Source: Moorella glycerini | GTDB taxonomy: Bacteria > Bacillota > DSM-521 > Neomoorellales > Neomoorellaceae | Direction of reading: 5' to 3' | Assembly: GCF_009735625.1 (NCBI RefSeq) | Contig: NZ_CP046244.1 | Span: forward strand, 620,001 to 684,000 | DNA: 64,000 nt | Shown: positions 6,243-7,584 of the stretch, piece by piece | How the letters are laid out: each line of letters begins with the position of its first letter | Position numbering within the stretch: position 1 is the stretch's first letter | The notes under the pieces: generated by a model | What the model was told of the DNA's origin: nothing | Seen by the model: the letters and a program-made list of their open reading frames with translations, nothing else | Database searches by the model: none | Made by a program: the position numbers and the translations under genes

Positions 6243-6419
6243 GTTTATCCCTCCACCCTAAGCTTAAACTCAATGCCCCGCTTGTTCAAGGGGCAAACTT
6301 TCCATTATTACCTAAGTCATTTCTCCTCTTACCCGTCTTTCGCGCGTAGACAGATGCATCAACTTATAATCCACAGCAGGCTGTTTCATAGTCATAAACC
6401 GCCTCTCCGGCAAGCAAAT

Positions 6420-6519
6420 GTTAAATTATGCTTAACCCCTTATCCCCCTCTATTCCTCCGCTTTTTCTCCCCATCAACTCCGCTTTTGTACCCGTCTTCA
6501 CAATTAAATATAATTTAAC
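6420..6519. repeat. ~100-bp inverted-repeat element, copy 2
   Basis: Starts GTTAAATTATGCTTAACC and ends TTAAATATAATTTAAC, giving terminal inverted repeats of about 16 bp. The interior shares CTCCGCTTTTTCTCC and ATCAACTCCGCTTTTGT with copy 1. It lies upstream of both the amidohydrolase (minus) and the selenoprotein candidate (plus). The adjoining 6243-6419 shows no gene or clear site. Confidence 0.65.
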
Positions 6520-6544
6520 CCGGATGTCAATGCTTCCAAAAATA

Positions 6545-6553
6545 TGTTATAAT
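6545..6553 (+). promoter_or_regulatory. Extended -10 promoter for selenoprotein candidate
   Basis: TGTTATAAT is an extended -10 (TG-N-TATAAT). The -35 region 17 bp upstream is poor (TGTCAA at 6525-6530), usual when an extended -10 is present. It lies about 80 bp before the ATG at 6632. Confidence 0.55.
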
Positions 6554-6631
6554 GATTAAGAGATTAAGAAAAAAAGGTGGTCCTGTGCCAGCAAATGCAG
6601 GCAATCCCGGCCACCCAGGCAGGTGGAACGG

Positions 6632-7498
6632 ATGATATACAAGCCAGAATTAACCCTGGAAGAGATGCAGCGGCAGGCTTTATTAAAGGTTGGAGGTGAT
6701 TACAAACAAGTGGACCATGGAAGTAGCTGTTGAAACCCACCTGTAGAAGGTGTTGGTCAACACCAGGAAGCAAATACTGAAAATTGTCTGGTTTGCAGCG
6801 GGAAACTGGAATACCTTGAATTTGGCAAGGAATTTACGTGCATGCAATGCGGCGCAAAAGAGACGGGTTATGTTTATTGTCCGGGTGGTCATTATATCTG
6901 TGATAATTGCCACGGCGAAAATTTGTTTAGCGCTATTTTAAATTTAATGCTTTCTGCAAAAGGTACTAATCCTTTGTCCATAGCTGAAGAAATAATTAAA
7001 CAAGTTCCTCTTCCCATGTTAGGATGCGAACATGCCTGGATTGCTGCCGGAGCCCTTTTGTCTGCCATCAGAAATCATGGAAAAATCGAAGTCACAAATG
7101 GCCAAATTACCGAAGCACTCAACCGGACCCGTAGGCAAGCCATTGGTGCCTTTTGTGGCCTGACGGGCGTTTGCGGTGTAGCTCCGGCGATTGGGGCTTC
7201 CTTTAGTGTTATTCTCGGCGCCGCCTGCCCAAAGGACCAGGAAACCGCCACCACCATGCGTGTTGTCTCACGGGTCATAGAAGCTATCGCCGACCAGACC
7301 GGCCCCTGTTGTTGTAAAAACTTCGTACGGACAACATTAACATTGAGTTGCCAGTTAGCTAAAGAGTATCTCGGGATTGCATTGCCGCATACCGAAAAAA
7401 TAGTATGCCAGGATAGTCACCGTCATCCCCACGGTTGTAGAAAAAACAAATGCAACTACTACCTTATAGAGGGGGAAAGTCGCCATCAAATCAAATAG
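6632..7498 (+). CDS. Candidate selenoprotein, DUF5714-like Cys-rich protein (Sec at 6731-6733)
   Basis: From ATG 6632 (AGGTGG at 6621-6626) the frame reads 33 codons ending HGSSC, meets TGA at 6731-6733, and continues in the same frame without another stop to 7498, giving 288 residues if TGA is selenocysteine 34. A GGTGTT-GGTC-AACACC hairpin starts 15 nt after the TGA, as in bacterial SECIS elements. The rest is cysteine-rich: CLVC (52-55), CMQC, CPGGHYICDNC, CGLTGVCG, CPKD, a CCC triplet and a His/Cys-rich tail, suggesting zinc or redox metal sites. The C-terminal region resembles DUF5714 proteins, whose function is unknown to me. No in-frame ATG, GTG or TTG lies between the TGA and ATG 6842, so a shorter protein would lose half of the first Cys pair. 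A 16-residue leader ORF (GTG 6585) overlaps the ATG. A nonsense-mutated gene is the alternative. Confidence 0.72.
6740..6767 (+). promoter_or_regulatory. SECIS-like hairpin
   Basis: GGTGTT (6749-6754) and AACACC (6759-6764) form a perfect 6-bp stem capped by GGTC (6755-6758). CCT (6740-6742) can pair with AGG (6765-6767) below a bulge. The GGUC apical loop is the SelB recognition feature of the E. coli fdhF SECIS, and the 21-nt distance from TGA to loop is within the known bacterial range. It is translated as part of the coding region. Confidence 0.7.
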
Positions 7499-7560: not shown

Positions 7561-7584
7561 CCCGCCTTCCTTTATGAAGGCGGG
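7561..7584. terminator. Hairpin after selenoprotein candidate
   Basis: CCCGCCTTC and GAAGGCGGG form a perfect 9-bp stem with loop CTTTAT. The plus-strand tail is only AT-rich (CAAAATATTATT), while the minus-strand side has TTTTT, so it may work in both directions or mainly as an mRNA 3' end. Confidence 0.55.

Follow-up and report, generated by a model that had tools for sequence, protein, structure and literature searches.

The window, a 64,000-nucleotide stretch of the genome of the acetogen Moorella glycerini (NZ_CP046244.1, positions 620,001 to 684,000), contains a reading frame that opens at ATG 6632, closes at TAG 7496-7498 and is interrupted at codon 34 by an in-frame TGA with the residues SSC-U-NPP around it. 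The earlier note had read this as a candidate selenoprotein gene of a DUF5714-like family, and the frame, the TGA, the Cys in front of it and the stop all lie where it had placed them. An in-frame scan also bore out its statement that no ATG, GTG or TTG occurs between the TGA and position 6842, leaving ATG 6842 as the sole codon of these kinds able to restart the frame past the TGA. The features of the locus are collected in Table 1; the count of promoter-like matches in the region is not above chance.

Table 1. Features at the candidate selenoprotein locus, in window coordinates.
Feature	Position	Strand	Basis or remark
Promoter-like ATGTCA-18-TATAAT, TG preceding second hexamer	6524..6553	+	Consensus match only
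C-terminal remnant of an Rpn-like gene, MIYKPELTLEEMQRQALLKV	6632..6691	+	Probable; in the frame of the selenoprotein
Shine-Dalgarno GGAGGTGAT	6692-6700	+	9 nt before GTG 6710; from sequence
Selenoprotein CDS, most likely extent	6710..7498	+	GTG start, 262 aa
Sec codon TGA (predicted)	6731-6733	+	Directly after Cys; about 46 homologues with Cys-TGA
SECIS hairpin, 6-bp stem, GGTC loop (predicted)	6749-6764	+	Covariation, homologue comparison
Zinc-ribbon/RING-like Cys-His region	6785..6913	+	Invariant in 52-sequence alignment
DUF5714 domain (PF18978)	6935..7462	+	E = 1.2e-52, residues 76-251

The hairpin GGTGTT-GGTC-AACACC starts 15 nt past the TGA, just as the earlier note described it. Among the 1,339 TGA triplets in the window (594 and 745 on the two strands), this is the only one that has a perfect hairpin (6-bp stem, 4-nt loop beginning with GG) starting 9-18 nt behind it, and the chance expectation for such a hairpin is 0.12 per strand by mononucleotide shuffles. 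When the window RNA was folded alone an alternative pairing was favoured and its stability was not unusual (z = -1.25), and an Rfam scan of the region returned no match. Since the hairpin is not the minimum-energy structure of the lone fold, the case for a selenoprotein rests on comparison. Covariation, which the earlier note had proposed as a check on the hairpin, was measured on an alignment of 46 rows (29 distinct). All six stem pairs carry double changes, with 35 double-change cells (matched in none of 500 shuffles), and 90.8% of stem cells are paired as opposed to 73.8% in the shuffles; for most rows the register chosen was the best-pairing one in codon phase at 9-30 nt from the TGA, a procedure that biases toward pairing. 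The covariation score is 0.605, falling to 0.18 or below in slid versions, and 251 of 276 cells are paired as opposed to 168.7 ± 6.3 under synonymous codons with pooled usage, so that the pairing lies far above what synonymous choice predicts. Most rows have the 4-nt loop GGTC, a G is present in the apical loop, and by inspection the same register tracks a conserved G-Q-H column. L049 was aligned as in the protein alignment and not by its best pairing, and L060 was excluded because its register is ambiguous.

A homologue search with conserved inner peptides gave 80 loci from named genomes, and among these and the loci found earlier, approximately 46 have Cys-TGA at the homologous place. They are mostly from Bacillota, with two deltaproteobacterial MAGs, and include Desulfosporosinus, Desulfotruncus, Desulfoscipio, Anaerosolibacter and Clostridium carboxidivorans. 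Nine other loci, from Nitrospirae, Bacteroidetes, Desantisbacteria, Omnitrophota and one further MAG, have Cys-Cys at the site, and one (L095) has Cys-Ser; in a quick tree the Cys forms fall in two groups. None of the ten genomes with Cys-Cys or Cys-Ser forms gave a SelB match at E 1e-65, with MAG incompleteness as a caveat, while the same search found SelB in six of six Sec-type genomes (L039, L045, L048, L071, L092 and L093). A cut-off was needed here because other elongation factors also match, making E-values alone uninformative. Every Sec-type genome checked, Sec-type relatives included, has SelB. Two further genomes with SelB (L086 and L097) have a protein whose N-terminus lies beyond the end of the available DNA, and a close relative from a Pelotomaculum MAG (L040) has TCA (Ser) for TGA in a genome with SelB, with the hairpin kept. 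The earlier note had expected TGA in relatives with the Sec machinery and Cys in those lacking it; this is the distribution observed, with approximately 46 Cys-TGA loci on one side and Cys-Cys in nine of the ten SelB-less genomes on the other. The Moorella genome itself encodes SelB (G000:C1:1254794-1256674), adjoined by selA and with a tRNA-Sec (anticodon TCA) nearby in one cluster, and its formate dehydrogenase gene (G000:C1:1022446-1024449) contains one in-frame TGA.

Taken from the conserved Cys-TGA, the stem covariation, the SelB pattern and the machinery in the same genome, the selenoprotein interpretation of the earlier note stands, and we are highly confident that Sec is inserted at UGA 6731-6733. 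SelB carrying Sec-tRNA would bind the GGUC hairpin 15 nt downstream, and the UGA would be decoded as Sec for that reason. A standard ORF caller instead yields exactly the frame from ATG 6842, as would be expected if the TGA were a true stop and the gene encoded a shorter DUF5714 protein of 218 aa. Such a protein would lose Cys 26, 29 and 44, residues that never vary among the 52 aligned homologues, archaeal ones included, and because they lie between the TGA and position 6842 that stretch must be translated. Together with the Cys-TGA and covarying hairpin retained in approximately 46 homologues, this led us to reject the start at 6842, and we consider a true stop very improbable. The remnant of another gene immediately upstream could also suggest a recently broken gene with a chance TGA, but the TGA is common to many genera and the gene is 94% identical to that of the closest relative (G010), with changes mostly at third positions in its main part; the flanks are 81-93% identical. 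Conservation contradicts a pseudogene, which we rejected as having next to no probability.

Where translation of the selenoprotein begins is a separate matter. Judged from the sequence, the start is probably GTG 6710, which is in frame, has a near-perfect Shine-Dalgarno upstream and corresponds to an ATG at the equivalent codon in G010 (L007). The product is thus likelier to be 262 aa, with Sec at residue 8, than the 288 aa given in the earlier note, whose ATG 6632 is nevertheless in frame. Translated, 6632-6691 resembles the C-terminal portion of several other genes of this genome: four further sites share 75-89% identity with it over 19-20 aa, one of which lies within a 335-aa ORF (L002). 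These codons are probably a leftover of the C-terminal end of such a gene, presumably of the Rpn type. It is conceivable, if rather unlikely, that the selenoprotein is translated from ATG 6632 with this stretch as a real N-terminal extension. The stretch is in frame in G010 too (where an additional six bases, divisible by three, leave the frame intact), its 20 codons have a dN/dS of about 0.24 relative to G010 (dN 0.11, dS 0.47), and AGGTGG precedes ATG 6632; on the other hand, it is less conserved than the remainder of the gene, it is missing from relatives other than G010, and the stronger Shine-Dalgarno belongs to GTG 6710.

Two observations concern the flanking DNA. Positions 6302-6620 are unconserved relative to G010, with similarity starting again at 6621. 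On the 3′ side of the gene there is an inverted repeat at 7561-7584, CCCGCCTTC-CTTTAT-GAAGGCGGG, in which the minus strand side alone has a run of T; it is absent from the list returned by a terminator scan.

With the start at GTG 6710, the product would be a small, Cys-rich protein made up of a disordered N-terminal Cys-Sec arm, a zinc-ribbon-like region of Cys and His residues, and a DUF5714 core of alpha helices bearing further conserved Cys. The likeness to DUF5714 proposed in the earlier note extends over the full length of PF18978 (178 bits, gathering cut-off 26.2). The zinc-ribbon-like residues are C26, C29, C44, C47, C57, H61, C64, C67 and H68 in 262-aa numbering, and zinc-finger matches in this region are weak and below cut-off. 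AlphaFold2, run with the 52-row alignment, gave a model with a mean pLDDT of 86.8 and a pTM of 0.84, in which pLDDT falls below 50 at residues 1-6 and 9-18, so the Cys-Sec arm is predicted to be disordered. Comparison of the model with solved structures showed no fold resemblance, and neither a sequence search of the PDB nor a viral fold library gave a credible match.

The best NCBIfam match of the protein is MbdU (NF045648), a metal-binding double selenoprotein, at 361.6 bits over model positions 30-268 and under the cut-off of 600; no NCBIfam model reached its cut-off. The table of a 2026 review (PMC13188914) gives MbdU as a selenoprotein with the motif CU and two Sec, and credits it to Haft & Tolstoy 2025. 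MbdU is not mentioned in the deep-Sep paper, and a literature search for DUF5714 found no paper. The window protein shares the N-terminal CU site and the DUF5714 region with MbdU but has no C-terminal DUF2284 half with its second Sec, ending after DUF5714 as many relatives do. By sequence comparison it is a stand-alone, single-Sec relative of the published MbdU family, and its novelty is modest: the selenoprotein reading of the earlier note is well supported, but the family is already a published one, as NF045648 covers the Cys-Sec site. Most of the distant DUF5714 members, from archaea and other bacteria, begin after the Cys-Sec arm. Fused forms also occur. The Desulfosporosinus acididurans protein (L050) is a full MbdU with DUF2284 (789 bits), and in four others (L055, L072, L075 and L087) the second half is AhpD/CMD-like and contains two more in-frame TGAs (GCEPU and ECKTU), making three with CU; a CMD domain match was obtained for L055, and the two tested, L055 and L072, are under the MbdU cut-off. 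The second halves of L050, L055 and L072 match those of ArsM-DUF2284 (NF041536) and ArsM-AhpD (NF041537), which have an arsenite methyltransferase where the fused DUF5714 forms have CU-DUF5714; both kinds of second half are missing from the window protein. Since the ORF caller starts at 6842 and every NCBIfam match stays below its cut-off, the single-Sec form seems easily missed, though many Bacillota have it. In this form the Cys-Sec site occurs without the DUF2284 and AhpD additions, which makes it the simplest protein of the family for functional questions.

Gene neighbourhoods bear on what that function may be. There is no obvious partner in the Moorella window, where we found no corrinoid or metal gene beside the selenoprotein gene, and Pfam and NCBIfam tallies of 106 neighbour genes showed no dominant family; most Sec loci have no common neighbour. 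In six loci (L037, L050, L070, L072, L087 and L096) the gene immediately downstream is MetE/URO-D-like; judging from the window's own genome, which has two such genes in 3.56 Mb, this is unlikely to be chance. In L072 the run continues with an MtrA-like protein and a CopZ-like cluster gene (cluster 17). In L039 and L047 (approximately 1-10 kb) a single run comprises MtaA-like, DUF1638 and Sec-DUF5714 genes followed by CbiM and apparent genes for cobalt transport. L045 carries a pair of MtaA-like genes, a RACo-like gene and ArsP_2 upstream, and L051 has a RACo-like gene nearby. The Nitrospirae Cys forms have ArsR-like regulators directly upstream. Several of these gene names were assigned by sequence clustering and visual inspection.

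The Cys-Sec arm could act as a soft, strongly nucleophilic ligand or as a redox pair. Because of the neighbour genes and fused domains of relatives, we tentatively suggest that it serves methyl-transfer or metal-response pathways by handling a metal, metalloid or corrinoid cofactor, a reading we hold at somewhat less than even confidence. This step is weak because the Moorella gene has no metal or corrinoid neighbour, most loci have no common neighbour and the model has no fold match. A selenoprotein for general thiol or peroxide redox is a comparably possible alternative, also short of an even chance. Cys next to Sec is a classic redox arrangement, the AhpD/CMD domain in some fused forms belongs to a peroxidase-related family, and 13 of 52 members weakly match the C_GCAxxG_C_C 'putative redox-active protein' family (PF09719; best E = 1.7e-5), though the window protein has no such match at E 0.05. 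Neighbours and fusions lean more towards metal response and methyl transfer, with ArsR-like, ArsP_2, MtaA-like, RACo, CbiM and MtrA genes among them. Within the metal, metalloid or corrinoid reading, a more speculative and rather doubtful proposal is that corrinoid-dependent methyltransferase systems use the short single-Sec DUF5714 protein as a dedicated accessory; its flexible Cys-Sec arm would reduce, load or unload the corrinoid, or accept a methylated metal(loid). If so, operons of the MtaA-like - DUF1638 - [Sec-DUF5714] - CbiM and [Sec-DUF5714] - MetE-like - MtrA-like kinds would mark a branch of C1 or organometal metabolism that depends on selenium. The operon contexts in any case provide a testable lead, toward methyl transfer on corrinoids or the handling of metal(loid)s.
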